Below are positions 36,566 through 51,958 of a stretch of 64,000 nt of DNA, piece after piece. The position numbers and the translations under genes are program-made. This DNA is from Methanosarcina barkeri MS (GTDB lineage Archaea > Halobacteriota > Methanosarcinia > Methanosarcinales > Methanosarcinaceae), in NCBI RefSeq assembly GCF_000970025.1, contig NZ_CP009528.1, positions 2,777,168 to 2,841,167 on the forward strand, read 5' to 3'. Each line of letters opens with the position of its first letter. The first letter of the stretch is position 1. The notes beneath the pieces are model-generated. The model searched no databases. It had not been told where the DNA came from and worked only from the letters and a program-made list of their open reading frames with translations.

Positions 36566-36958
36566 ATCTCTTTGATTCTGTTCAGATCCTTATGATACCA
36601 GGAAATCTCTTGCCGGACCTCCTGCTTGTCATATCTGGTCTTATCAAGTTCTAGCCTCTAAATCATTATATATACATAATTCTTCTACTTTTGCCCGTAA
36701 GCCCGTAGGGGACACCAACTGTTTTGACTCAAACGTGGCTTCACACGGTTGCAGATTCCAAATCCTGTCCACTGATCATACCTATAAGTTCGATAGTGTG
36801 GATTGGTGTTGAGTATGATGTTATTTGTGATGATGTTTTACTCATTCCCGAAGAAATCCATTAAAACAAGAATTGAAACCGTAGGTCAACGCTGTCTGAA
36901 AGCTTTCCTGCTGAACAGACAAAAAAGTAAAAAGAGATATTTCAATTTGAATATCCCT
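36566..36958. other. Intergenic region with a solitary CRISPR-type repeat
   Basis: Downstream of the DUF2119-type gene and of the convergent PKD gene. It holds a single CRISPR-like repeat (separate entry) and a short GC-richer block at about 36700-36775 with a weak tRNA T-arm-like GCAGATTCCAAATCCTG. No gene. Confidence 0.5.
36844..36879 (+). CRISPR. Solitary CRISPR-type repeat (36 bp), no array
   Basis: Begins ATTCCCG and ends ATTAAAACAAGAATTGAAAC. This closely resembles the 37-base type I-B repeats of Methanosarcina, which end ATTGAAAC (from memory). No second copy lies within 80 bases on either side and no cas gene is in the window. It is an orphan or relic repeat. Confidence 0.6.
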
Positions 36959-39751
36959 TTAAGCTCCTTTGTAACTATTCACCAATGTTAACTCCAAATC
37001 CTTTGTTGAAATTATGTTTCCTTCGCTGTCAAAATAGGTGCTGTCATATCCTTTGGGATTATTTTGGTAGTAGTAGAAGCTTATCAATCTATTTCCATAC
37101 TGATCTTGCCATATATCCCATTTCCACTCAGGATGATAAGATTCCGAATCTCCTGAAACAGTTTCTATAAAGTCACTTACCCCTTGATAATCATTTACAA
37201 ATGTTAATACTTCAGATTCAGTGGGAAGGCTTGTGTCACCGGATGTTGTGTCATCACTTTCAGGAGCTGTAACAGTGATATAGTCTGTTTTTGTTTCCAT
37301 ATCCTGACCTGCTTCATTGGTTACAGTCTCTGTTACTGTATAAGTTCCAGCTTTTGTATAGGTATGCGTTGGATTATGCTCGGTGAAGATATCATAACTG
37401 TCTCCAAAATTCCATTGCCATTCAGTAGGAGATCCTGAGCTTTCATCAGTAAAAGATACTGTAAGAGGTGCTTCTCCTGAAGTTACGGATGCAGAAAAAT
37501 CAGGAACTGGAACAGTTTCTGTAGATTTGAATTCAGTGTCAGGGAGAGCAGTTTCTGTGTTATCGGATGTTGTCTCATCACTTTCAGGAGCTGTAACAGT
37601 GATATAGTCTGTTTTTGTTTCCATATCCTGACCTGCTTCATTGGTTACAGTCTCTGTTACTGTATAAGTTCCAGCTTTTGTATAGGTATGCGTTGGATTA
37701 TGCTCGGTGAAGATATCATAACTGTCTCCAAAATTCCATTGCCATTCAGTAGGAGATCCTGAGCTTTCATCAGTAAAAGATACTGTAAGAGGTGCTTCTC
37801 CTGAAGTTACAGATGCAGAAAAATCAGGAACTGGAACAACAACGATTGGAGTCTCTGCAGGAGCTGTAACAGTGATATAGCCTGTTTTTGTTTCCATATC
37901 CTGACCTGCTTCATTGGTTACAGTCTCTGTTACTGTATAAGTTCCAGCTTTTGTATAGGTATGCGTTGGATTATGCTCGGTGAAGATATCATAACTGTCT
38001 CCAAAATTCCATTGCCATTCGGTAGGAGATCCTGAGCTTTCATCAGTAAAAGATACTGTAAGAGGTGCTTCTCCTGAAGTTACGGATGCAGAAAAATCAG
38101 GAACTGGAGCAACAGCAGTTAGAGCCTCTGCAGAAGCTGTAACAGTGATATAACTCTCTTTTGTTTCTGTATCCCCACCTATTTCATTTGTTATAGTCTC
38201 TTTCACCGTGTAAGTTCCATCTGTTGTATAGGTGTGTATTGGATTTTGCTTGGTTGAAGTAACTCCATCCCCGAAGTCCCAGTTCCAAGAGGTTGGTGAG
38301 TCGGTGCTCTCGTCAAAAAACTGTACCTTTAGTGGTGCTTCTCCGGAAGTTATATCTGACCAAAAGTCGGCAACAGGGAGTACTGGTTGTTCTGAACCAT
38401 TTATATTTGAATTCGTACCACCTACTCTCTCGCCTACTGTTTGATATGGTGCTTGTGGATTTTCAGATTGACTTCCATCGTTCCCGCTCATCAGTGAAAT
38501 TCCACCTAGTGCCAGAAAACATAGAATTGCCCCGATAGCCAACTTTTTTAGTACGTCATATTTTGCTTTCTCTTCGGCTTCTTTCCTTGCTTTCTCTTCT
38601 TCCTCTTTCTTCTTTATTTCTTCGTCCCTTTTTTTGTTTTCAGCCTCTTTCTTTGCTTTCGCTTCTTTCCTTGCTTTCTCTTCGGCTTCTTTCCTTGCTT
38701 TCTCTTCGGCTTCTTTCCTTGCTTTCTCTTCAGCTTCTTTCCTTGCTTTCTCTTCAGCTTCTTTCCTTGCTTTCTCTTCGGCTTCTTTCCTTGTTTTCTC
38801 TTCAGCTCCTTTCCTTGCTTTCTCTTCGGCATCTTTCCTTGCTTTCTCTTCTTTCTTACCTGGATTATATAAATCTGGATTGTATTCAATTTTCTCAATT
38901 TTACAGAAGGAAATGAAAATATTTTCCGCCAGTGTTCTATCCTTGAGCAGCTCAGTTAATTTCCCAATGTAAATATCACCTTGTTCATCAGACATTTTTT
39001 TATCTGTGATCTTTGCAATTTCTTTTGCGTTATCTAAAATACTTCTTCTTTTACACCATGCTAAGTAATCGTCATAAATTGTTTTACTGCTTTCGTCCTT
39101 GAAAGCCAGTTCACAAGCTTCGCAGACTTTTTTACCAGCACTACTGTAAGTATCATTTTTATAGAACTCGTTTTTCTTTTTTTCCTGTGCTAGTTGTTTG
39201 AGCTTATCGCATGGCAGTTTGTCCATATTCTGCAAGGTACCGGGATTTAAGAAAGCATAAAAATCATCTTTATTAAATGGATTAAGGTAAGTCTTCATGC
39301 CATCAAATGCTTCAACATTCTTAGGCTTATTTTTATAATACTTGTCATAAGTTATCTGGAAATCAACCTTCGGGATTATTTTTATTCCAAGAGCAGAAAC
39401 TCTTTTTTTAACTACGTTCACGGATATCTTTTTCGTATTTGCATAATTTTCGACTACTTTTTCGTCAATTTTCCCAGCTGTACCAAGTATTTTTAGATCT
39501 TGATCTATTGGATCATATACGATACTACACGCAGAAGCAGCTTCCCTTTTACGCTCAACAGGATCGCTCATTATTCTTTTTATTTCGGGGAGCATTTCAA
39601 GATACATCTTGTATTCTGCGCCTTTTTTGAAATGGTTAGAATTACGAGACCAAAATTTAACCTTATCTTCAATTCTCTGGTCTATAATAGCTTGATCCTC
39701 CACGGCAGGGTCAAAATCTAACTCTAATAACAAATAGTAGTTCTCTTTCAT
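36959..39751 (-). CDS. Membrane-spanning protein: degenerate J-like domain, Lys/Glu coiled coil, TM helix, four PKD domains
   Basis: 930 residues, last gene of the chaperone cluster. Residues 1-75 (ENYYLLLELDFDPAVED... FWSRNSNH... IMSDPVERKREA) resemble a J domain, with the YYxLL start and the late conserved DPxxR, but the HPD tripeptide is absent (SRNSN stands in its place). About 75-335 is a helical cytoplasmic region with several Cys. About 335-445 is KARKEAEE repeated, a charged coiled coil. One membrane helix (about 448-468, LAIGAILCFLALGGISLMSG) is followed by four PKD domains (about 480-845) and a 75-residue C-terminal domain. So the J-like end faces the Hsp70s inside and the PKD end faces outside. 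24 bases after the Hsp70-VWA gene. Confidence 0.8.
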   Translation of the reverse strand: MKENYYLLLELDFDPAVEDQAIIDQRIEDKVKFWSRNSNHFKKGAEYKMYLEMLPEIKRIMSDPVERKREAASACSIVYDPIDQDLKILGTAGKIDEKVVENYANTKKISVNVVKKRVSALGIKIIPKVDFQITYDKYYKNKPKNVEAFDGMKTYLNPFNKDDFYAFLNPGTLQNMDKLPCDKLKQLAQEKKKNEFYKNDTYSSAGKKVCEACELAFKDESSKTIYDDYLAWCKRRSILDNAKEIAKITDKKMSDEQGDIYIGKLTELLKDRTLAENIFISFCKIEKIEYNPDLYNPGKKEEKARKDAEEKARKGAEEKTRKEAEEKARKEAEEKARKEAEEKARKEAEEKARKEAEEKARKEAKAKKEAENKKRDEEIKKKEEEEKARKEAEEKAKYDVLKKLAIGAILCFLALGGISLMSGNDGSQSENPQAPYQTVGERVGGTNSNINGSEQPVLPVADFWSDITSGEAPLKVQFFDESTDSPTSWNWDFGDGVTSTKQNPIHTYTTDGTYTVKETITNEIGGDTETKESYITVTASAEALTAVAPVPDFSASVTSGEAPLTVSFTDESSGSPTEWQWNFGDSYDIFTEHNPTHTYTKAGTYTVTETVTNEAGQDMETKTGYITVTAPAETPIVVVPVPDFSASVTSGEAPLTVSFTDESSGSPTEWQWNFGDSYDIFTEHNPTHTYTKAGTYTVTETVTNEAGQDMETKTDYITVTAPESDETTSDNTETALPDTEFKSTETVPVPDFSASVTSGEAPLTVSFTDESSGSPTEWQWNFGDSYDIFTEHNPTHTYTKAGTYTVTETVTNEAGQDMETKTDYITVTAPESDDTTSGDTSLPTESEVLTFVNDYQGVSDFIETVSGDSESYHPEWKWDIWQDQYGNRLISFYYYQNNPKGYDSTYFDSEGNIISTKDLELTLVNSYKGA
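37260..38108 (-). repeat. Three near-identical ~250-bp PKD-encoding repeats
   Basis: Copies at about 37260-37511, 37587-37834 and 37857-38108 differ by only a few bases over roughly 245 positions; the fourth PKD unit (about 38130-38390) is clearly diverged. Recent duplication or gene conversion. Confidence 0.9.
38650..38850 (-). repeat. 24-bp tandem repeat encoding KARKEAEE
   Basis: Seven to eight units of GCTTTCTCTTCGGCTTCTTT or close variants, encoding the charged coiled-coil linker of the J-like/PKD protein. Confidence 0.9.
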
Positions 39752-39775
39752 GAAAGCACTACCCTTACTCTATAA

Positions 39776-41890
39776 TTACATTACTTTCAAACCAGTAGCA
39801 TAGTCGCTGATTGCTTGGGCAATCTTAGAGAATGAACCAGATAGTTCAGTCAAATTCGTTATAGAAGCAAATTCATCTATAGATGCGATTTGTTTTAGAA
39901 ACTCATAGTCTGCATTTCCAAACCCCAATGCAATAATTTCTATGCCTGCTTCATGGCACTGCTTAGCTGCGCTTATTGCCCTTTTCTGATGGTACCACTC
40001 GCCATCAGTAAGCACAATAATATAGCATACTTCGCCCTCATTTTCAGAAAGGTTTCCTTTTAACAGGGTTAAAGCAGTTGTAAATGGTTCTGCAGAATTT
40101 CCACCACCTACTTTCACACCACTTAATTTTGATATTACATCATTAACATTATTAAAATCTGTATCAAGCGGCAATACACATTTGACCTTATTGGCAAATG
40201 CAAGAATACCAATTTTAGTATTACCTTCTTCTAATTTGGCTACAAAATCATGCATCGCTTGCTGTGCTTTTTTAATTGGCTTGCCATACATGCTTCCAGA
40301 TAAATCAACTGCTAAAATGATCTCAACATTCGGAGCCTCTGCGTTACCAGCTTGATCTTTTGGTGACCTGTCAGTCCAATCCATATCTTCGGGTATCGGC
40401 TCAATTCTAATTGGCAATTTCTTATGGTTTTCTTGTTGAACCGCTGATACTTCAACAACACCATTAGAGGTGTATTGATATGTCACATCAATAAAAGAAG
40501 TAGATGAGGAAACTCTTTCGATTTCTGTTATTACATATTTATTGATAATCGTATTATCTAAGGGTCTTTCAAATTCGCCTTGCAAAATATATACTTCAAG
40601 TTCGTTATTTTTAGTTCTTGTCTTAAACTTAAATGATCTTGTATTCTCTGCTGGAACTTTACTATTTTTCTTAATAATGATGCTGTTAATGTATTTTTCT
40701 CCATCGGGACTAATAGATATCATTCCAAGAGAATGAGCTGTAACATCAAATACAGCTTTAGCGCCTTGTATGCACAGTTTATTTGTTTTTGGACGATGCA
40801 TTAACCCGCCAATCAAAGGAACTATATTCGCTTTCTCATCAGTATTGGCTCTGATTGCTGCTCCAAGAGCTACAGCTTCGTCCACATTAACACCCGAAAG
40901 GGGATGTTTACCCGACATGCTCTCAACATACTTATGAACCATTCTCATTCTTGTGGAACCGCCAACAAGAATTACACCATCGATATTATTCCATGATAAA
41001 TTGAGGGAAGTGATTAAACCTTCAGTCAATTCTTTAGTTGTTCCTAATAAAAACTGTGAAATAGATTCAAACAAGTCTTCTGTAATTTCAATATTAGCTC
41101 TAATACTTTGATAGGTAATGGGCACTCTTACAGTGTCTTTTGCTGTTAGCTGCCTCTTTACATTCTCAGCAGTTACCAATAAAGAGGCAACCATTTCTCT
41201 ATCCTCGCTTAAGTCTATTCCATATCGTTCTTGGAATTCAGCTACCAGGTATCTTGCTATACAATCATCCCAATCTTTGCCACCAAGTTCATGGTTACCA
41301 TCGCTACCGAGGATATCAATTTCATCTTTATTGATACGGGCAATGGTAACATCGAATGTTCCACCCCCAAGGTCATATATCAGTACAGTTTGCTCTGCAT
41401 CTTTGCCATTCAACCCATATGCGATTGCCGCTGCAGTAGGCTCATTAATAATTGAAAGGACATCTAGCCCTGCTCTTTTGCCAGCTTCAATAGTGGCTTC
41501 ACGCTCTTTATGAGTAAAATAAGCAGGAACAGTTATAACAGCAGCATCAATTTTCTCTCCGATTTGTGATTCGGCTTCTTTCTTAATCTTTTCAAGAAAT
41601 GTGGCAGAGAAATCCGTTGCATTATATGTTTTCCCATTAATCTCTACAGAAAACATATCTTTACCCATGCTACGTTTAAAAAACGCAACGGTATTGATAT
41701 CGCCCATCGCTTGCATATTTTTAGCGTCTTGGCCATACAAAATATTCCCATTAGGCTCGAAACACAAAACTGAAGGAGTGATAGCACTGCCAAAACAATT
41801 TTTTATAACCTCTGGTTTCCCAGTTTGCTCATCTATACATGCAACAGCACTAAAAGTTGTACCTAAGTCAATTCCGACTCTAATACCCAC
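39776..41890 (-). CDS. Hsp70-von Willebrand A fusion protein
   Basis: 704 residues. Residues 1-375 are a full Hsp70 nucleotide-binding domain: GIDLGTTFSAVA, VLIYDLGGGTFDVT, and GVILVGGSTRMRMV. About 375-505 is a shortened substrate-binding beta domain. The helical lid is replaced by a VWA domain (about 518-700) with an intact metal site DLSGS near 527 and the later T/D positions (LTDGEW). VWA domains bind protein partners through a metal ion. The start is GTG at 41890 with GGAGG seven bases before. Such a fusion implies ATP-controlled gripping of a partner at a specific place; the neighbours are a second Hsp70, GrpE and a J-like membrane protein. Confidence 0.92.
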   Translation of the reverse strand: MGIRVGIDLGTTFSAVACIDEQTGKPEVIKNCFGSAITPSVLCFEPNGNILYGQDAKNMQAMGDINTVAFFKRSMGKDMFSVEINGKTYNATDFSATFLEKIKKEAESQIGEKIDAAVITVPAYFTHKEREATIEAGKRAGLDVLSIINEPTAAAIAYGLNGKDAEQTVLIYDLGGGTFDVTIARINKDEIDILGSDGNHELGGKDWDDCIARYLVAEFQERYGIDLSEDREMVASLLVTAENVKRQLTAKDTVRVPITYQSIRANIEITEDLFESISQFLLGTTKELTEGLITSLNLSWNNIDGVILVGGSTRMRMVHKYVESMSGKHPLSGVNVDEAVALGAAIRANTDEKANIVPLIGGLMHRPKTNKLCIQGAKAVFDVTAHSLGMISISPDGEKYINSIIIKKNSKVPAENTRSFKFKTRTKNNELEVYILQGEFERPLDNTIINKYVITEIERVSSSTSFIDVTYQYTSNGVVEVSAVQQENHKKLPIRIEPIPEDMDWTDRSPKDQAGNAEAPNVEIILAVDLSGSMYGKPIKKAQQAMHDFVAKLEEGNTKIGILAFANKVKCVLPLDTDFNNVNDVISKLSGVKVGGGNSAEPFTTALTLLKGNLSENEGEVCYIIVLTDGEWYHQKRAISAAKQCHEAGIEIIALGFGNADYEFLKQIASIDEFASITNLTELSGSFSKIAQAISDYATGLKVM

Positions 41891-42082
41891 TTTTATTCCT
41901 CCAAATTAAATTAGCTTGCAAACCCAATGAGCTCATCTTAAACCGATTTTATAATTAAATATGGAAATTTAAAAACCGCTTTCATGATCATAAATTCGAT
42001 TGATTTTTCAAATTTGAAATTGAAAAAAATGATTTTGAGTTTTAGGATAAGCCCAATAAGTATTGTAGCTGATAAAATGTAA

Positions 42083-43714
42083 TTACATCAAGACCATTTG
42101 CTGTGATTTTTTTCTTAAATCCTCAACTTCTTCACTGGTCATGATATTTTTTGACTGCATAGTTGCATGAATTTCTTTGTTGCTTGTCAGATCTTTACCA
42201 GTAACTTCCAAAATGCCTTCACTATTAAGACTTAATATTATCTCAATTGGCGCACCAGAAGGAAGGTTATCCGGCAATTCTAAGGTTGCTGTACCAATCT
42301 CGTAATCTTTATCGATATCAAAATACTCATCCATAAAATCGCTTTCATAGACAACTATTTCAGCTGTTTCCTGGTTTGCAATGTATGTTCCAAATGTCTG
42401 GGAAACAGTTATGACACCATCAGGCATAGAATTGTTTTTGATAATCATATTGCAACATTTTGGTTCCTTATTTACAATTGCCTCTACAGCAAAACTTTTA
42501 GTTGTAGCCACAACAATCGAACGCTTTTTTCCACCTATGCTCATCATCGCTGGGTCAACAGATAATTGTTCAACACTATTAGATGGATCTAAAACGGAAT
42601 CTGAAGTCACACTGCCTTTATTGTCTTCATCCCATTTGGACAAAGTTGGTTGGTCGTTGATGTAAACATTAACAGCATGAATTGCAGCCCCTTTAGCAAC
42701 AGCTTCATCCGGTTCAAGGATTTTAGGCTTTATGCCGTATTTTTCCTCCAACACCCTGGTTACCTGTGGCATTCTCGTAGAACCGCCAACCAAAAGAATT
42801 TCATCTACTTTAAAACCACGTTTTTCTGCCACAGCAATAGCAGCATCAGTCTTATCAACGGTGGAATTTAACAGTGAAAAAGTAATCTCATCAAATTTTT
42901 CTCTTGAAAAATCGATTCTTGCTCTTTCTCCAGCTGCCTCAACTATAACAGGAGTTTTTTCTTTCGCAGAAAGTTGCTGTTTTGCTTTTTCAGCTTTCAA
43001 ACGAAGATCCTGCTGTGCGTATTCATCAAAATCGCCATCATATGATTTTTGAGAAGCAAATTCATCTGCAAGGTAACGCATGGTTGCACTGTCCCAATCT
43101 TTTCCGCCTAAATCATGGTCCCCGTCAGAACATATAATCTCAATTTTTTCGGAGTTAATACTCATGATAGTAACATCAAAAGTTCCTCCCCCCAGATCAT
43201 ATACAAGAATAGTTTTTTCTTCAGGTTCTTTAGTGCACCCATAGTAAATTGCTGCAGCAACAGGTTCACTAATAATCTCCAGCACATTGAGACCAGCAAT
43301 TATTCCTGCATTCTTTGTCGCTGTTCTTTCAGCAGTACCAAAATAAGCAGGACACGTAATTACTACATCCTTTACTTCTGCATCAATTTCCTTTGCTGCG
43401 TCTTCTGCAAGCTTCCTCAAGATGTAGGCCGATACTTCTTCAGGAGATTTATCTTCATCGTTGTAATTTATAGCAAAGTTACTTTTACCCATCAATGTTT
43501 TTACTAGTGATACAGTATTCTTAGGGTCAATAACGGCAGTCTCCTTTGCCACCTGTCCTACGACAACTTGATTGGGACTTGCAAAATTAACAACAGAAGG
43601 AGTAGTATTTGTTCCTTCTAAATTTTTAATAACATTTGCCCTTCCACTTTCGTCAACATACGCAATACATGAATATGTCGTACCAAGATCAATGCCATAG
43701 ACATACTTAGCCAT
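42083..43714 (-). CDS. Hsp70 (DnaK-like) chaperone with short C-terminus
   Basis: 543 residues against about 620 for housekeeping DnaK. The nucleotide-binding domain is intact (GIDLGTTYSCIAYVD, TCPAYFGTAERTA, LVYDLGGGTFDVT, EILLVGGSTRMPQV). The beta substrate-binding part is present (GVITVSQTFGTYIANQ; EGILEVTGKDL), but most of the helical lid is missing and a Ser/Asp-rich insertion lies near 365-390. Start ATG at 43714, preceded by GGAGATG; it overlaps grpE by 8 bases. Probably a specialised paralogue serving this cluster rather than the cell's general DnaK. Confidence 0.92.
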   Translation of the reverse strand: MAKYVYGIDLGTTYSCIAYVDESGRANVIKNLEGTNTTPSVVNFASPNQVVVGQVAKETAVIDPKNTVSLVKTLMGKSNFAINYNDEDKSPEEVSAYILRKLAEDAAKEIDAEVKDVVITCPAYFGTAERTATKNAGIIAGLNVLEIISEPVAAAIYYGCTKEPEEKTILVYDLGGGTFDVTIMSINSEKIEIICSDGDHDLGGKDWDSATMRYLADEFASQKSYDGDFDEYAQQDLRLKAEKAKQQLSAKEKTPVIVEAAGERARIDFSREKFDEITFSLLNSTVDKTDAAIAVAEKRGFKVDEILLVGGSTRMPQVTRVLEEKYGIKPKILEPDEAVAKGAAIHAVNVYINDQPTLSKWDEDNKGSVTSDSVLDPSNSVEQLSVDPAMMSIGGKKRSIVVATTKSFAVEAIVNKEPKCCNMIIKNNSMPDGVITVSQTFGTYIANQETAEIVVYESDFMDEYFDIDKDYEIGTATLELPDNLPSGAPIEIILSLNSEGILEVTGKDLTSNKEIHATMQSKNIMTSEEVEDLRKKSQQMVLM

Positions 43715-44471
43715 GTTGTACCATCTCCGTGTTAATTTCTGTTATTATTTCGGCTGGCTCTTCATAATAATAAACAGCAATTTTTTCTGCAGAAATAGTC
43801 CTTCCGTTATAGTCATAGCCACAGCTTAGAGACTCGGCAACCTTACCGTGTAATTCACTGTTTTCAGTAACAACCTTCTTAATTACTCGTTGTTTTACCG
43901 GCAAAAAAGAATCTCCAGGGCTGCTTTCGTATATCTCAACGCCATTTTTATCTAATATATCTTGAATGTCAAGAGCATATCCTGCAAAAGTTTCGTTAGG
44001 AATATCCCTTTCTCCTTCAGGCTTCTTGAGGTAAAAATCGGTTATTCTCAAAATACTATCTCTAACTTCAATAATGTCAAGAAGAACTTGTCTGAGAACC
44101 TGTGAGTAAATGTCATCCTTATACTTCTGAAGCTCTTTATGCATTTGATCAATAATTTTTCCCTTATGTTCCATATGCTGTGTTTTTTCGGAAAAGAGTT
44201 GATTAAGGGAGTCTACTTTAGCCGAAAGATCGGTAATATTTTGCAAAATATCATCATTACTGATGCTTACACTTTCAGCTTTTCCGAGTTCCTCTTCAGT
44301 ACACTTTTCGACATTCGACCCATTGAGAGGTTCATCAAGTATCAATTTCTCTTCTTTGATTTCTTCGTTGCTTGTAACTGTATCGACAACTTCGTCTTTT
44401 ATATTTTCAGGAAACGCATCATCTACCATTCTTTGATCAGTCGGAGGTTCTTCCTTGTCATTATTGCCCAT
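43707..44471 (-). CDS. GrpE-like nucleotide exchange factor
   Basis: 254 residues from the ATG at 44471, chosen because AAGGAG lies eight bases before it; an upstream TTG at 44504 would add 11 residues. An acidic N-terminal stretch precedes a long coiled coil (about 80-140: LSAKVDSLNQLFSEKTQHME, MHKELQKYKDD), then a four-helix-like part and a beta wing (GVEIYESSPGDSFLPVKQRV), the layout of GrpE. It would release ADP from the adjoining Hsp70s. The sequence is far from housekeeping GrpE; assignment rests on layout, the wing motif and its position, overlapping hsp70. Confidence 0.8.
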   Translation of the reverse strand: MGNNDKEEPPTDQRMVDDAFPENIKDEVVDTVTSNEEIKEEKLILDEPLNGSNVEKCTEEELGKAESVSISNDDILQNITDLSAKVDSLNQLFSEKTQHMEHKGKIIDQMHKELQKYKDDIYSQVLRQVLLDIIEVRDSILRITDFYLKKPEGERDIPNETFAGYALDIQDILDKNGVEIYESSPGDSFLPVKQRVIKKVVTENSELHGKVAESLSCGYDYNGRTISAEKIAVYYYEEPAEIITEINTEMVQHG

Positions 44472-45452
44472 CTCTTGATCTCCTTGTATCTCAGTGATTT
44501 CCAATGCAAAAGGACATCTGCAAATACAGACTATGTGCTCATAAATTGTCTAAAATAGTTGACAAAAGCTATTACACTACTAGAATAGCACCAAATGGTG
44601 CAACTCAAGTTGAAAAAAGAAGCGCTGTTGCTAAGAAAATAAATACTGCTGATAAATTAATATCATTTTAGTCGTATAAGTTTGTACATCTGTATAGCTG
44701 TCAACCATTTTAATAATCCTTCTAGTTTACTAAAAGCAATTAACTACTAAGCAATTCTAATTTTAAGTGTTAACAAAGTCATAATTTGATTTATAATTAT
44801 TAAACTTGCCTATTTGTTTCAATAGTTCTTTTATTTAGATTAAATTTAGATAAATAATTATAAAAAACGTTTATTTTTAAAATCAACCTATTTAATTCGT
44901 TTTATAAAAGAAACTACTAAAAAATAGGAGTAATAACAAGAAAGGAATGTTAACTGTGTAAATAACAGAATTAAAGCAGTTATAACTTGTAATTACAGAT
45001 TTTAACCCAAATTTGACAGACGCATATATTATATAATGTCTAAACGGGCTTCATGCTTATGTTTTCTTCACACTATTCAAAGTTTTATCCCACATCTTAT
45101 GATTTTTTTACATTTTTCAGTTTACCAAAATGTAATGTGTCGATACAACGTGTTTTGTGTAAGAAAATACTGTATTAATTAGCAGAATCTGTCAAATTAG
45201 GGTTTTAAAGGTAGAAACAGGCATAAACTTACAGACAAATGAAGAGATAAATTCTAGTTATGCTGAGATAATGAGGTCACTGGACAACAGGAAATATTCT
45301 AAAATTTACACCTAGGAACTATTAAAGTATAGAAGCATGTTTACATACAAGTAAATTGTCAGCATTACCCCTTTGTCCTATGAGGAGGCGAAAAAAACTG
45401 GCAGTTTAGGGGCTCATACATAGCAGCATGACGCTGTTTTGCCTTAATTATT
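44472..45452. other. Gap within the cluster: MITE-like element and short coding debris
   Basis: Plus-strand frame 44504-44668 (54 codons, MQKDICKYRLCAHKLSK...) ends ATQVEKRSAVAKKINTADKLISF and looks coding, but it is short, overlaps the grpE start antisense and is unrecognised. A second piece near 45212-45313 (EEINSSYAEIMRSLDNRKYS) also looks like a gene remnant. No minus-strand gene, and so no obvious immunity gene, is present. Confidence 0.5.
44998..45210. mobile_element. MITE-like element of about 210 bp
   Basis: Terminal inverted repeats: left TTTTAACCCAAATTTGACAG, right (reverse complement) TTTAAAACCCTAATTTGACAG, about 19 of 21 bases matching. The interior is AT-rich and has no coding capacity. 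Family unknown; no full element with these ends is in the window. Confidence 0.65.
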
Positions 45453-46778
45453 GGCTCTTCGTCGTTTCAGATGGGTATGTTTTTATATTAAAAATACAAT
45501 ATAAATAGGTATTATAATATTTGATAAAAATAACTGCAGGAGTTTGATATCCCATTTGTGAAAAAACATTTGAAATACCTTTGAATGTCAAAGAACCTTG
45601 GCAAATAACCAATGCTGAATTTGATTTAACATCTGAAAAACTTAATATTTGGATTGATTTTAAACGTGGTTCCAAATTTCCCTGTCCTAAGTGTGGCAAA
45701 CCAAACTGCTCAGCTTATGATACTAAGGAAAAAGTGTTACGGCATATTAACTACTTTCAATATTCTACATATTTGCACTGTAGAATTCCAAGAATAGAAT
45801 GTGAAAATTGTGGAGTTCTTCAAATAAAAGTTCCATGGGCTCGCGAAAAAAGCAACTTTACTCTTCGAATGGAAGCTCTGATCCTGGAGCTATCAAAAAG
45901 AATGCCAGTGTTACAAATTGGGAAGTTGCTTGGAGAATATGACAAAAAGCTTTGGAGAGTCATAAACCATTACACTGACAATGCAAGGTCTAAAGAGGAT
46001 TTATCGGATGTATGTGTTGTTGGTATAGATGAAACTTCATGCAAGAAAGGACATGAATACATAACTCTTGTTGTTGATATAAAAGATTCAAAAGTAATAT
46101 TTGCTTGTGAAGGAAAAGACTCTTCAACTATTACCAGTTTTAGCAAAGATCTGCAAGATCATAATGGAAACAAAAGCAACATTAAATCGGTATGTTGCGA
46201 CATGTCTCCCTCATATATCAGTGGAATTTCTATAGAATTTCCAGATGCAAAAATTACATTCGATAAATTCCATGTGATGAAAGCGATGAATGAAGGATTA
46301 AATGAAGTAAGGATACAAGAACAAAAAAAACAAAGGAACTCAAAAATACCAAATTCATATGGATTACGAACAAGGAAAATCTAACTGATAAACAGAGAAA
46401 AAGGCTTTTAAAACTCCAAAATCAAAAACTGGATACATTCAGAGCATATAATATAAAAGAAAGTCTTAGAAAGTTCTGGGAATACAAAAGCCGAGAGGAA
46501 GCTGAACAATATCTAAAAAAGTGGTATTTTTGGGCAACTCATAGCAGATTAGAAGCAATAATTGAGGTTGCTAAAACCATTAAAAGTCATTGGGATGGAA
46601 TTCTAAACTACTTTGATTCCAGAGTCACTAACGGAATTGTGGAAGGTATTAACAGTATTGTACAGTTGATAAAAAGAAATGCTAGAGGATATCGAAACAC
46701 TCAGTATTTTATTACTAATATCTATCTAAAATTAGGAAAGTTAGATTTCAAACTACCCATCTGAAACGACGAAGAGCC
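45453..46778 (+). mobile_element. ISL3-family insertion sequence, complete ends and 8-bp target duplication
   Basis: 1326 bp. Perfect 25-base terminal inverted repeats (GGCTCTTCGTCGTTTCAGAT followed by GGGTA). Flanked by TAATTATT at 45445-45452 and again at 46779-46786, an exact 8-base target duplication, which fits ISL3. The intact ends and duplication show a recent insertion. It sits between the nuclease gene and grpE; the nuclease stop codon lies inside the right-hand duplication. Confidence 0.95.
45581..46764 (+). pseudogene. ISL3-type transposase, frameshifted at an A8 run
   Basis: The first frame (TTG start at 45581 to stop 46384) has the zinc-finger CPKCG...CENCG, then catalytic Asp in VVGIDETSCKKG and Asp in VCCDMSPSYISG. 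The second frame, minus one, continues KNTKFIWITNKENLTDKQRKR, with the catalytic Glu in NGIVEGINSI, to the stop at 46764. The join is at GAACAAAAAAAACAAAGG around 46320: one A fewer than an in-frame version. Either a fresh inactivating mutation or a slippery site (A-AAA-AAA) allowing -1 frameshifting. DDE residues are all present when joined. Confidence 0.85.
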
Positions 46779-46781
46779 TAA

Positions 46782-48239
46782 TTATTGTTTGCTCATATAC
46801 TCACCACCAACATGTCCTGTTCTCTTATGGTATTCTTCTGTTGGGACAAGTTGCATCCTCGAGAAGTCTTGATGATGGTGCCATGTAAAACCAGGAATCT
46901 GGGCTCTTCCTCCTTTTATTGCACTCAATTGTTCTGGAGTAAAGCTTGTCAGACTAGCGTTTCTTTTTTGATCAGGATCTTGAAGTGATTTTCGAAGTGA
47001 TCTAGTTGCAGCTCTTTTATGGGCTTCACTATCATGTTTCGAAGCAATATTTTCTGGAATTCTTGTGTCAAATACAGCAACGTCATCAAAAATTGGAAAA
47101 CCTTTTAAATCATATACAATTCCAGTTATTGGATGTTTTTCACCAGCCATATGAACCATTTTTGCGTCATTTGGTGGAATAGTTGATGAACTAACTTGCC
47201 CTGGATATCTCCTCTTTAATACATCCGCTATCTCTCTTGATGATAGAGCCATTGTGTTTCCTGAGCCATATTCATCGTTTTCAGATTGTTGTTCTAAACC
47301 ATTCAGTTCTGGCTTGCCCATCTCATGTTCACCAGCTTTATCTGTCTCATTAACTTTAGTTTCTGCATTAGGTTGAATATCTACATTTATCTTATCGTTT
47401 TCTGATTCGGTCTTAGATTCACCAGCTTTTATCTCATCTTTTTCAGATTCGATCTCATCACCAGTTTCACCTGTCTCATCAGTTTTTATCTCATCTTTTT
47501 CAGATTCTGTCTTAAGATAGTCGTTACGCTCAGCGTTTAATTCTTCACTGAATCCAGTTTTTCCATCGCCTTTATTAATCCTACTCAGCTCTTCACCAGT
47601 TTCACCTGTCTCATCAGTTTTTATCTCATCTTTTTCAGATTCTGTCTTAAGATAGTCGTTACGTTCAGCGTCTAATTCTTCACTGAATCCACTGTTTTCA
47701 TCGCCTTTATTAATCCCAGTCTCATCAGCTTTACCTGTCTCACTAACTTTTGTCTTGTCGTTTTCAGGATCTATATTATTTTTCTTGTCGTTTTCAGGAT
47801 CTATATTTTTTTTCTTGTCGTTTTCAGGCTTTATCTTAAGATAGTCGTTGTTATGCTCATCTTTTAATTCTTCACTGAATCTACTGTTTCCATCGCCTTT
47901 ATTAATCCCAGTCTCATCAGCTTTACCTGTCTCACTAACTTTTTTCTTGTCGTTTTCAGGATCTATATTATTTTTCTTGTCGTTTTCAGGATCTATATTA
48001 TTTTTCTTGTCGTTTTCAGGATCTATATTATTTTTCTTATCGTTTTCAGGCTTTATCTTAAGATAGTCGTTGTTATGCTCATCTTTTAATTCTTTACTGA
48101 ATCTACTGTTTCCATCGCCTTTATTAATCCCTGTCTCACCAACTTCGCCAGCTTTACTTATTTCACCTTCACCTGTCTTATTAAGTTCACCTAGCTTGTT
48201 CTTTACACCATTGTTATTAGTGTCTTCCAATCCAGACAT
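46782..48239 (-). CDS. Repeat-rich protein with C-terminal WHH/HNH-type nuclease (polymorphic-toxin-like)
   Basis: 485 residues from the ATG at 48239, chosen for a near-perfect AGGAGGT seven bases before it. About 20-300 is built of nested repeats rich in Asp, Asn, Lys and Glu: a unit ETGINKGDGNSRFSEELKDE and an octad IDPENDKK. Then AHKR...RKSLQDP, and at the end IPGFTWHHHQDFSRMQLVP...YHKRTGHVGG, the conserved pattern of the HNH/endonuclease VII-fold WHH toxin nucleases. In that class the variable nuclease tip is delivered to rivals and neutralised by a neighbouring immunity protein. No signal peptide. It follows the HerA-type ATPase gene by 178 bases. Nuclease call from motif; delivery role inferred. 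Confidence 0.8.
   Translation of the reverse strand: MSGLEDTNNNGVKNKLGELNKTGEGEISKAGEVGETGINKGDGNSRFSKELKDEHNNDYLKIKPENDKKNNIDPENDKKNNIDPENDKKNNIDPENDKKKVSETGKADETGINKGDGNSRFSEELKDEHNNDYLKIKPENDKKKNIDPENDKKNNIDPENDKTKVSETGKADETGINKGDENSGFSEELDAERNDYLKTESEKDEIKTDETGETGEELSRINKGDGKTGFSEELNAERNDYLKTESEKDEIKTDETGETGDEIESEKDEIKAGESKTESENDKINVDIQPNAETKVNETDKAGEHEMGKPELNGLEQQSENDEYGSGNTMALSSREIADVLKRRYPGQVSSSTIPPNDAKMVHMAGEKHPITGIVYDLKGFPIFDDVAVFDTRIPENIASKHDSEAHKRAATRSLRKSLQDPDQKRNASLTSFTPEQLSAIKGGRAQIPGFTWHHHQDFSRMQLVPTEEYHKRTGHVGGEYMSKQ
47440..48190 (-). repeat. Nested tandem repeats in the nuclease gene
   Basis: Near-identical blocks at about 47850-48100 and 47690-47880 and at 47470-47690, each containing CTTGTCGTTTTCAGGATCTA (encoding the DPENDKK octad) one to four times. 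Strong length instability is expected. Confidence 0.85.
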
Positions 48240-48417
48240 ACATTTACCTCCTGCGAAATAGTATAGCTGGCACTTCTCTATAATCCTGCACTGATTTAGG
48301 AAAGCCACCATTTTGCCTAGAAACAATCACTTTTTTGTTTATTTACTATTGAAATGAGACTTATTGACTGAGTTATCGGATTTTTCATTTATTAATAGAG
48401 TATTGGTAGAGTCTTTT

Positions 48418-51400
48418 TTAAAATATTTTTCTGACGCAATAATGTACAAATTTATATCTCTCACTATTGTTCGGTTCACTTTGGATCTTGTAGTCTAAGA
48501 GTTTTATAAATACTGTTTTTCTTGTTTGTTCATCAAAATCTGCATAGAGATCCAAGTTCTTAGTGATATAATCAACATATATTCTACAAGCTTTAACAGT
48601 AGGATTATCAATCTCTGACTTTTTTGGAAGCTTTTGTAATTCCGATGTGTTTGGTAGTTTATCTTCAAACATTCTAAACAAATCATTACAATTCATAAGT
48701 TTAAAAATGAGTTCAAAAAAAGCAAATTGTTTTTGTTTCGTCTCAAACTTTTTCTGATATTCCAAAAGAAGATTTCTTATATCAGTTTTGGCGAGCTTGG
48801 AAACTTTTGCAGAATTAATAATTGTATTGAACCACGCCATATTAAAGATCTTGTCTTCATCTTGGAGAATGAGTTCAGTAAGTAATTCTCCTATTAAAGC
48901 CGTTCTATTCTTTCGATCTTGAATCGGAGTTGATGATATTTCATATAGATCACTGCTCTTATCTATTTTTGTTAAAACGGGCTCTAACCAGTTATTTTGA
49001 CATATCGCAGCAACGCCTTTATCCAGTTTAGTTAATTCCATAATCTGTTCATCAGTTAGACCAATTGAGCAACCGGCAACCTCGCAATCGTTCCTTTCAG
49101 GTAATCTCATAATTATTTTTGTATTGGTGTTTTTTATTGCTGATATGTCTACGGACGTTGGGGACTGATCGACAATAATAAATCCTTCACCAAATGTTCT
49201 CATTTCAGCTATAGAATTGCTTATCATTTCAACGGATTTGCCCTGAACATTTGAAGATTCTTGATCCTGGTCTACAGAGGTTCTTTTCAAAAGGTTATGT
49301 GCTTCTTCCAGTATGGTTACATGCTTAAGCGGCAGGTTTGTGCCACCTGACGTTGATTGTCTAAACTCACTCAACTTTAATACCAACATGCCCATTAGCA
49401 ATGCCTTTGTTTCAACAGATCCTATACGACTCAGGTCAACAATTGTATTTTGATTAAATAGCACATCATCGTCGATTGCATGCCCCAAAAAAATTTGCCC
49501 GACCAGACCATCTGTTAAAGATTCGACACGGGTCACCAGAGATCCAACATAATTTCCCTTTACTTCATCGGAAAACTTAGATTCGTTGAGCAACTTAGGC
49601 AAGATGTCAACGATATCTTTGAATGTTGGGAATTTTCCGTTCCCTCGATTAATATGTATAGAGTGATTTAAGTCCCAGCCATGAAGAATATATGCTTTCT
49701 CAAATGATGCTTTCAAAAATGCTGGCATAGCTGCATATAATGGCCAGCATGCACTGAATATTTCTATAAGTCTATCCAGATGTTCTAATACATGAATTTC
49801 TCCATTAAACTCAAATGGATTTATACTCAACATGTCATAATATCGTGGATTTGTTGTAAATATGTTAATATCCGGCATGCCACCAAAAGCTAATTTGTAT
49901 TCACCTTTTGCTGGCTCAATGACCAAAAATTTAACATTATTTTTTTGCGATATTAATTCATCTATAATTTTGTAAGTTGTGTTTGATTTTCCTGAGCCGG
50001 TCGATCCGGTTATGAAGCAATGTGCTGTTAAGCTCTCTAAATCCAACTTCACTCTATTGTTCTCGAATACCTCCCCCATATGGTAGATGGCCCCAATGTC
50101 AATATTTCGAGAGTTATCTTTTTGCTCTTTTACAAACACATTTCTACCGAATGCAACAGAATTAACAGATGTGACACCGACTACAGATTTGTGCGGAATT
50201 CCCATCAAAATAGGCAACTCAACACCACTAATCATACTTGCTGGAGTAATTGTTTGTTCTGTGTAATTGCCCTCTCCACTATTAGGAAGATATCTAAACT
50301 GAGGATGCAAACCATGCCGGAGATGATCCAAAATTATTAAGCTATTATCTGAATTCTCATATTCATTATTCCACAGGTTTATGAATGAATTTTCAACACT
50401 TGTCTTTTCTCCAGCAACCAGCGCTTTATATGTATTAGCTGCGACAATAGATGTTTCGGGATCTTCAGAAATGAAATAACAGGCACTGTCCCATAATCCG
50501 TATGCTTCGCAATTTTTGATTCTATCTAATTGCTCATCTATCTTCTCTAATAATTCCTGTACAGTCTTATTTTGTCTGGTAATAGCTATACTTGTAGACG
50601 TTCCTTCCGTAGTCGTCCTTGTATCTGATTTTGTGTTGCTTGTAGACTCAGATTCAGAACGCGTATCAGTATGGCCAGTAGAAGATCCGGTAGAGCTCCC
50701 AGTATTTGTTCCTTCATTTTTACCAGAATTAAACCCAAGTAAAAAAATAGAATAATTACGACCATGATACCGAGATTTACTTGTTCCACTGGAGGTACTC
50801 GTGTTTGTTCCGGTTGTGTCGCTAACGCCCTCGTTTATCGATTTTGAGAAGCTATCACTTATTCCTATAGCTACAGCTTCACTATTATTTTCGCCATACG
50901 TCATATTTGCCTGTGAGAATTGTGAAAGTGTGGAATAAAGCTCCTCATATCCTCGTTTCTTGTTTTCCAAATCAGCTTTACTTAACGGTGAAGAGATTAA
51001 TACCGCAGTGTACTTTTCACCGGACATAGAATCAATAAATTTCTCCATTCCCTGTACAAATTTATCCTTATCATCGTCTCTTGCGCTAGGAACAATTGAA
51101 ACGGAAGAAACAGCCATATTAGAATATACGCTGGGAATATGAGACTCTAATATTCTTTCAATTTCTGAAGATGATTGTTCATTTATTTCAATACCAGGGA
51201 AATTTCCTCTCAAGCTTTTCTGCAAAATTTCTTTTGCGGTATTTGGTTGATTAACATCTCTTGTTCCGAGGTAAAACTTTACACCTTCTTTATCACTGAA
51301 AATAACAAGTAAAGCTGAACTTCCAAAATTCGATAATGCACTATAAACACTAACGAGTTTATCGTTAATGTTCTCATCAACGTCATATACAATTTTGCTA

Positions 51401-51579
51401 ACTTCAAACATCGAGATATATGAGAAAGAGCGTTGAATATCTTCTAATGGTATCGGGTCGCATTTACCTATATCAATTAAATAGTTTTTATTTATAAACA
51501 GGTCTGCAATTTCCAATCCATTTTGCATGATTTCAGAAACACGATTTTGCATTTTGGTCCTTTCTTCGGTATATCTCAT
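48418..51579 (-). CDS. HerA/FtsK-like ATPase with Ser/Thr/Gly-rich insertion
   Basis: 1053 residues, first gene of the cluster. Residues 1-235 form an alpha/beta region; about 235-345 is a low-complexity Ser/Thr/Gly/Glu stretch (TGTNTSTSSGTSKSR, GSSTGSSTGHTDTRSESEST) interrupted by NYSIFLLGFN. The motor domain from about 480 has Walker A ITGSTGSGKSNT near 525, VIEPAKGEYK after it, Walker B HVTILEEAHNLLKR near 755, and a late arginine-rich IIMRLPERNDCEVA. This is the HerA/VirB4-like class of hexameric pumps that move DNA or proteins. No signal or clear membrane helix. ATG at 51579 follows GAGG by eight bases. It is far longer than DNA-repair HerA and has no NurA partner nearby. Confidence 0.88.
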   Translation of the reverse strand: MRYTEERTKMQNRVSEIMQNGLEIADLFINKNYLIDIGKCDPIPLEDIQRSFSYISMFEVSKIVYDVDENINDKLVSVYSALSNFGSSALLVIFSDKEGVKFYLGTRDVNQPNTAKEILQKSLRGNFPGIEINEQSSSEIERILESHIPSVYSNMAVSSVSIVPSARDDDKDKFVQGMEKFIDSMSGEKYTAVLISSPLSKADLENKKRGYEELYSTLSQFSQANMTYGENNSEAVAIGISDSFSKSINEGVSDTTGTNTSTSSGTSKSRYHGRNYSIFLLGFNSGKNEGTNTGSSTGSSTGHTDTRSESESTSNTKSDTRTTTEGTSTSIAITRQNKTVQELLEKIDEQLDRIKNCEAYGLWDSACYFISEDPETSIVAANTYKALVAGEKTSVENSFINLWNNEYENSDNSLIILDHLRHGLHPQFRYLPNSGEGNYTEQTITPASMISGVELPILMGIPHKSVVGVTSVNSVAFGRNVFVKEQKDNSRNIDIGAIYHMGEVFENNRVKLDLESLTAHCFITGSTGSGKSNTTYKIIDELISQKNNVKFLVIEPAKGEYKLAFGGMPDINIFTTNPRYYDMLSINPFEFNGEIHVLEHLDRLIEIFSACWPLYAAMPAFLKASFEKAYILHGWDLNHSIHINRGNGKFPTFKDIVDILPKLLNESKFSDEVKGNYVGSLVTRVESLTDGLVGQIFLGHAIDDDVLFNQNTIVDLSRIGSVETKALLMGMLVLKLSEFRQSTSGGTNLPLKHVTILEEAHNLLKRTSVDQDQESSNVQGKSVEMISNSIAEMRTFGEGFIIVDQSPTSVDISAIKNTNTKIIMRLPERNDCEVAGCSIGLTDEQIMELTKLDKGVAAICQNNWLEPVLTKIDKSSDLYEISSTPIQDRKNRTALIGELLTELILQDEDKIFNMAWFNTIINSAKVSKLAKTDIRNLLLEYQKKFETKQKQFAFFELIFKLMNCNDLFRMFEDKLPNTSELQKLPKKSEIDNPTVKACRIYVDYITKNLDLYADFDEQTRKTVFIKLLDYKIQSEPNNSERYKFVHYCVRKIF

Positions 51580-51738
51580 AAGTTAGGCCTCTATTTTGAT
51601 AAAATAGTCATCCTACTCCATCTTCATACCCATATCGACAAGTTGACCTAATTATAGATATATATTCTCATATTGTTCTCAAGTCATAGAATTAAAATCA
51701 AGCAGAGCTTCTGAAGAGGTAGGAGGTATTTTCTACCG

Positions 51739-51945
51739 ATGACTTTTAAAAATTTATTTGGTTATAAAAATAGCTTATTGCCAATCTGTCAGGAACCATA
51801 TTGTTTAGAACTTAAAACTAAACCTGAAAAACAAATTAGAAAAAGGAAGTTAAAAAATAGTTTTGAAAAAAAAATTTTAAAAAAGCCACAGAATAAAAAC
51901 CACAGCTTTCTATGTTTACTTATCTGTGTTTATTTGTTAGTTTAA
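51739..51945 (+). CDS. Doubtful small basic protein
   Basis: 68 codons, preceded by TAGGAGGTA about 11 bases upstream, Lys-rich with a hydrophobic C-terminal segment (HSFLCLLICVYLLV). No family recognised. It lies between the HerA-type gene and the thermosome gene, opposite strand. Could be a small membrane peptide or chance. Confidence 0.25.
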   Translation: MTFKNLFGYKNSLLPICQEPYCLELKTKPEKQIRKRKLKNSFEKKILKKPQNKNHSFLCLLICVYLLV

Positions 51946-51958
51946 CTTAAACCCGGCT

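Follow-up and report, generated by a model that had tools for sequence, protein, structure and literature searches.

A lidless Hsp70 with a VWA domain in the place of the lid, encoded in a chaperone operon of Methanosarcina barkeri MS

The Hsp70 and VWA parts of the fusion protein

The window analysed here comprises 64,000 nucleotides of the Methanosarcina barkeri MS genome (contig NZ_CP009528.1, positions 2,777,168 to 2,841,167), and all coordinates given below are positions within it unless another locus is named. On its minus strand, an Hsp70-VWA fusion gene (39776..41890, GTG start) encodes a protein of 704 residues, as indicated by Pfam HSP70 and VWA matches, an AlphaFold2 (AF2) model and about 30 homologues. 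Judged from its sequence and model, the protein is a lidless Hsp70, in which the ATPase and the client-binding beta-sandwich are kept and a VWA domain stands in the place of the lid. The Pfam HSP70 match extends over residues 5-498 (E 2e-112), and the full-length AF2 model, calculated from an input alignment of 28 relatives, reached a mean predicted local distance difference test (pLDDT) score of 87.9. The nucleotide-binding domain (NBD; residues 1-349, 40844..41890, minus strand) was delimited by Pfam, conserved ATPase residues, the AF2 model and fold alignment. The phosphate-1, phosphate-2, connect and adenosine motifs and the catalytic residues are those of an Hsp70, with D8, K72, E150, D173, T178, D180 and GGS 310-312 invariant in 34/34 relatives. 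An original prediction, made from the sequence of this DNA, had described residues 1-375 as a sound Hsp70 ATPase. The invariance of all ATPase residues checked supports the soundness, and the boundary has to be shifted, since the NBD ends at about residue 349 and is followed by a linker (352-370) that is predicted to be disordered.

Behind this linker lies a complete beta-sandwich of the substrate-binding domain (SBD-beta; residues 379-499, 40394..40756, minus strand), identified from the AF2 model and from alignment to ATP-state DnaK and BiP. The original prediction had overlooked it; the client-binding domain is retained and not replaced. Residues 1-499 of the AF2 model superpose on ATP-state DnaK (4jn4_A) with Z 50.0 and a root-mean-square deviation (rmsd) of 1.8 over 467 residues, and on BiP in the ATP state as well. 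As NBD and SBD-beta are both present, the missing part is the helical lid (SBD-alpha) only, which was not found in the model of the fusion: two short helices at residues 504-515 are followed by the VWA domain. The NCBIfam DnaK equivalog score of the protein, 368.7 bits, lies far below the cut-off of 648. Moreover, Ser146 of the fusion occupies the position of DnaK Arg167, the residue that contacts the HPD motif of J-domains.

The VWA domain (residues 520-697, 39800..40333, minus strand) was identified by Pfam (residues 524-679, E 1.8e-21), a domain model and a fold search. Models were compared with Foldseek and VIA-align. Among the matches listed for the full-length model there were only Hsp70s, and the VWA domain was therefore modelled and compared alone. 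Folded in this way, the C-terminal part reached a pLDDT of 89.6 (AF2) and aligned with the VWA domain of CMG2 (8fzu_C) with Z 24.9 and rmsd 2.0 over 174 residues; similarity to metal-binding integrin I domains amounts to Z ~22. The C-terminal part thus has a VWA fold, and the claims that a VWA domain with DLSGS lies at residues 518-700 and replaces the lid were borne out by Pfam, model and fold alignments alike. The finding that the original prediction had named as its refutation, a predicted structure with some other fold in this part, did not occur.

The metal ion-dependent adhesion site (MIDAS) of this domain was compared between two clades of fusions: clade A, to which the M. barkeri MS protein belongs (19 sequences), and clade B, with 13 mostly proteobacterial sequences (L052-L057, L059, L060, L062, L063, L066, L068, L108). 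MIDAS loop 1, DLSGS (529-533, 40292..40306, minus strand), retains the canonical DxSxS, and its D, S and S are invariant in 32/32 VWA-bearing relatives. Loop 3, LTDGEW (627-632, 39995..40012, minus strand), carries the canonical Asp, D629, invariant in clades A and B, and a clade-specific Trp632 after TDGx that is present in 19/19 clade A sequences. D529, S531, S533 and D629 are therefore in place. The deviation concerns loop 2, GGGNSAEPF (595-603, 40082..40108, minus strand), where Gly597 replaces the canonical Thr and is followed by Asn598. In clade A, this position is occupied by G in 15 sequences, C in 3 and L in 1, never by Thr or Ser (0/19), and the next residue is N in 15 and T in 4; clade B has Thr in 12/13 and Ser in 1/13. 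The metal site had been predicted to be intact and to mediate metal-dependent docking. The first claim is incorrect, and the second is not supported in the form given: by its sequence, the fusion VWA carries an altered MIDAS, one of five positions being systematically changed in clade A. Because the loop-2 motif is conserved yet changed, a specialised binding face is indicated rather than decay, and the clade A domain would be as compatible with an altered site that still holds metal, or with a face that binds without metal, as with metal-dependent binding. That the domain binds a partner by metal coordination exactly as integrin I domains do is suggested by the invariant DxSxS and second Asp and by the fold similarity to those domains, but the missing loop-2 Thr in every clade A sequence, whereas clade B has Thr or Ser, makes this a tentative possibility on the unlikely side.

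The fusion family and its chaperone operon

The genome scan for the combination of Hsp70 NBD and VWA, a check that the original prediction had proposed, returned about 30 full-length fusions from many phyla. Their hosts are Firmicutes, Bacteroidetes, Treponema, Planctomycetes, Chloroflexi, Zixibacteria, Holophagales, Victivallaceae, Deltaproteobacteria, Myxococcota, Latescibacteria and archaea. Within its own genus, the fusion gene has an overall ratio of nonsynonymous to synonymous substitution rates (dN/dS) of 0.16-0.18, and each of NBD, SBD-beta and VWA evolves under purifying selection. A chance fusion is excluded by so many homologues of the same architecture across phyla, together with this selection, and the family is, on the genomes scanned, widespread and not an oddity. 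VWA identity is 25% between clades A and B vs 41% and 55% within the clades, and a quick tree recovered two supported fusion clades, a result that does not separate one origin from two; two independent Hsp70-VWA fusions are possible. L096 is another clade B fusion. No relative of the fusion was found in phage, plasmid and viral collections except one plasmid match to the VWA part only, and there is therefore no sign of phage origin. The fusion was not found in the open literature searched.

Related proteins without the VWA domain were also observed. Two close relatives of the fusion, L058 (7834-8586) and L061 (9501-10253), have an unrelated C-terminal domain without Pfam match in the VWA slot, which suggests that targeting modules can be exchanged at this position. 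L064, L065, L070 and L072 represent a broad class of Hsp70s of ~510 aa that have neither lid nor VWA and are encoded directly downstream of GrpE. In a Rosetta-stone test, no standalone VWA gene was found beside lidless Hsp70s in the examined loci outside the fusion set.

The operon around the fusion encodes GrpE, Hsp70, Hsp70-VWA and a J-like protein, with two lidless Hsp70s among its products, a context that the original prediction had missed. The second lidless Hsp70 (543 aa, 42083..43714, minus strand; Pfam HSP70 E 1.3e-105) has an orthologue adjoining the fusion in most loci, and phrog_22485, a PHROGs family of unknown function, matches both Hsp70s. The GrpE nucleotide exchange factor (43707..44471, minus strand; Pfam GrpE E 7.6e-10) was given an ATG start by comparison with relatives, which have a stop inside the 5' extension of the open reading frame (ORF); as listed, this ORF reaches 44504. 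On the other side of the fusion, a gene at 36959..39751 (minus strand) encodes, according to Pfam PKD matches, hhalign and hydropathy, a J-like domain (about residues 1-75), a Lys/Glu-rich region, a transmembrane (TM) helix (404-422) and four PKD domains. The J-like domain aligns with DnaJ J-domains over 59 columns (hhalign probability 62, E 7.5e-5) and has no HPD motif. Among the J-like proteins examined, only those of Methanosarcina have a TM helix at that place, and the FnIII forms are without it. The Lys/Glu-rich repeat tract ahead of the helix (residues 300-400) varies in length between strains. Bacterial promoter and terminator patterns were uninformative for this archaeal host, and PADLOC gave no match for any gene of the chaperone operon.

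The usual order of clade A operons is (TM-GTPase)-GrpE-lidless Hsp70-Hsp70-VWA-J-like/FnIII-Zn-ribbon GTPase-GAP1, and its GrpE-Hsp70-Hsp70-VWA-J-like core is kept in archaea, Firmicutes, Treponema, Zixibacteria, Holophagales and others. DO-GTPases and/or GAP1 stand alongside in most clade A loci with enough flank. Two archaeal relatives, L031 and L034, gave matches to Pfam DO-GTPase2, GAP1-N2 and GAP1-M; for the GTPases, some of these matches score under the curated cut-off. GTPases and GAP1 are present in the archaeal relatives G037 and G299. In clade B the order is Hsp70-VWA, GrpE, Hsp70; the L068 locus continues with a DnaJ protein recognised by Pfam and a TPR-zincin. A theme of Hsp70, GrpE and DnaJ-FNIII has been described among the predicted GAP1-N2 DO-GTPase conflict systems, in a paper whose text leaves an Hsp70-VWA fusion unmentioned and whose supplementary tables may list one (Kaur et al., 2020, eLife 9:e52696, PMC7159879). 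On its gene content, the clade A operon is the Hsp70 branch of these systems in most genomes. In M. barkeri MS the Hsp70, GrpE and DnaJ-like set of this theme is present. No DO-GTPase above cut-off and no GAP1 was detected genome-wide in M. barkeri MS or in the operon-bearing genomes G014, G017 and G021, of which G017 and G021 are draft assemblies. By these searches, the GTPases and GAP1 are gone from this Methanosarcina lineage and the chaperone quartet is kept.

The genomic island in Methanosarcina

The operon lies in a 15.4-kb island (36566..51958, no strand assigned) between a DUF2119 gene and a thermosome gene, recognised from the empty site in G002, where the flanks are 171 bp apart. The site is an integration hotspot, being empty in G002 and holding other genes in G029 and G028. 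The island also encodes a HerA-type ATPase (48418..51579, minus strand; Pfam DUF87 E 9.5e-15) and a nuclease-tipped ORF (46782..48326, minus strand) with Pfam matches to Colicin-DNase (E 3.4e-15) and WHH (1.6e-10). An apparently truncated ISL3-family transposase ORF (267 aa, 45581-46384) was observed between the latter and GrpE. The ORF between HerA and GrpE varies by strain, other ORFs standing there in G014, G017 and G021, and it looks like a polymorphic-toxin-type effector. Counterpart ORFs between HerA and GrpE were located at 408-1139 in L032, 5686-6417 in L033 and 2102-5578 in L035.

These neighbours raise the question of whether the island is a polymorphic-toxin cassette, in which HerA is joined to a strain-variable nuclease effector and the quartet folds or holds the toxin. 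HerA occurs in 5/31 Methanosarcina genomes, namely the 4 that carry the chaperone operon plus 1 of the other 27, and the intervening ORF has a WHH/colicin DNase end in M. barkeri MS. This link, however, is confined to one genus and to four genomes that are related, so that the co-occurrence does not represent four independent events. Elsewhere the same chaperones accompany GTPases and GAP1, G037 and G299 yielded no toxin of this kind, and no Pfam family was matched by the nuclease-like ORF ends of G014, G017 and G021. A toxin cassette is therefore rather unlikely, somewhat more so than integrin-like metal coordination.

Possible role of the VWA domain and relation to known systems

The favoured and moderately probable interpretation is that the operon encodes a dedicated Hsp70 machine, whose two Hsp70s have a J-like partner and a GrpE of their own, and that the VWA domain docks the fusion on a fixed partner of the system. 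The gene products correspond to the components of an Hsp70 cycle: two ATPases of the Hsp70 type, one exchange factor and one J-like partner. Through its DxSxS face, the VWA domain would hold the Hsp70 on its partner, for which the J-like/PKD protein, the nuclease-tipped protein and the second Hsp70 are candidates. The docked complex might then be assembled, released or remodelled, driven by ATP turnover and GrpE, much as MoxR ATPases act together with vWA co-chaperones. We infer this docking by analogy with MoxR-vWA pairs, and a fixed partner is plausible and agrees with the strict conservation of the neighbouring operon genes. Membership in a conflict or stress response, the partner's identity and the direction of the ATP-driven step are presumed. 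Several observations weigh against the dedicated machine. The J-like domain has no HPD and Ser146 stands at the DnaK Arg167 position, and J coupling is therefore probably not of the textbook type; classical J stimulation of the fusion Hsp70 appears doubtful. G014 and G037 have lost the fusion; remnants of both its ends, 5' and 3', persist there as deletion scars, the genes for GrpE, the J-like protein and the other Hsp70 are kept, and the fusion gene is on this evidence dispensable. Moreover, that the GTPase-centric class as a whole acts in conflict is likewise a prediction.

The domain might alternatively serve as a surrogate lid, which folds back over SBD-beta and gates clients in cis without any outside partner. 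Its location in the SBD-alpha place after the short helical stretch 504-515 and the purifying selection shared by all three domains would agree with such a role, but the second Hsp70 of the operon works without lid and without VWA, and L058 and L061 have their unrelated domain in the same place, which makes a surrogate lid unlikely. A spare general stress chaperone without dedicated partner, conceivable insofar as an ordinary DnaK-type gene (621 aa) elsewhere in the genome could make a further Hsp70 redundant, is highly improbable in view of the fusion's own GrpE and J-like protein, a gene order kept over very distant phyla and the patchy, island-borne distribution within the genus. The dedicated machine can be extended to a more specific and speculative form, which we regard as unlikely in its entirety: a one-polypeptide Hsp70-VWA counterpart of MoxR-vWA pairs, possibly arisen twice, would remodel a fixed partner via a modified metal site and, in Methanosarcina, would be uncoupled from the GTPase switch, linked to the membrane and serve a strain-variable nuclease effector.

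The action of Hsp70 is usually explained by the lid trapping the client. A family in which the ATPase and the client cleft are kept, the lid is swapped for a VWA domain and other chaperone genes nearly always adjoin in the loci examined is a natural experiment on the purpose of the lid. The fusion also adds an undescribed core subunit to predicted conflict systems, a class without any experimentally established mechanism in the literature searched, and the persistence of the Methanosarcina quartet without GTPase and GAP1 makes the stand-alone working of the chaperone module testable.

Summarizing, the fusion resembles DnaK/Hsp70 in the ATP-state arrangement of NBD and SBD-beta and in the conserved catalytic residues, and differs in the absent SBD-alpha lid, the appended VWA domain and a score of 368.7 bits against the DnaK cut-off of 648. 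With the MoxR-vWA pairs (RavA-ViaA, Midasin), as outlined in passages of PMC7159879 and generally known, it shares the coupling of an NTPase chaperone to a vWA domain; its ATPase, however, is an Hsp70 in the same polypeptide as the VWA. In the GAP1-N2 systems (PMC7159879), DO-GTPases and GAP1 share one neighbourhood with GrpE, a DnaJ-FnIII protein and either a single Hsp70 or two, whereas M. barkeri MS is without GTPases and GAP1 and has PKD repeats and a TM helix where FnIII repeats stand. The proteobacterial and myxococcal clade B has the same architecture, with GrpE and a second Hsp70 adjoining and a DnaJ-domain protein in L068, but its genes are ordered differently, neither DO-GTPase nor GAP1 was seen in its loci and its MIDAS is near-canonical with Thr or Ser; it may be an independent fusion. 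Finally, CoCoNuT restriction systems unite the NBD/SBD of the Hsp70-like CnuD and TerY-type VWA proteins in one defence operon, and one CoCoNuT VWA likewise lacks the middle Thr (PMC11090510). There, however, Hsp70 and VWA are not described as fused and the Hsp70-like ATPase motifs are described as degenerate (PMC11090510), whereas in the fusion these motifs are intact.
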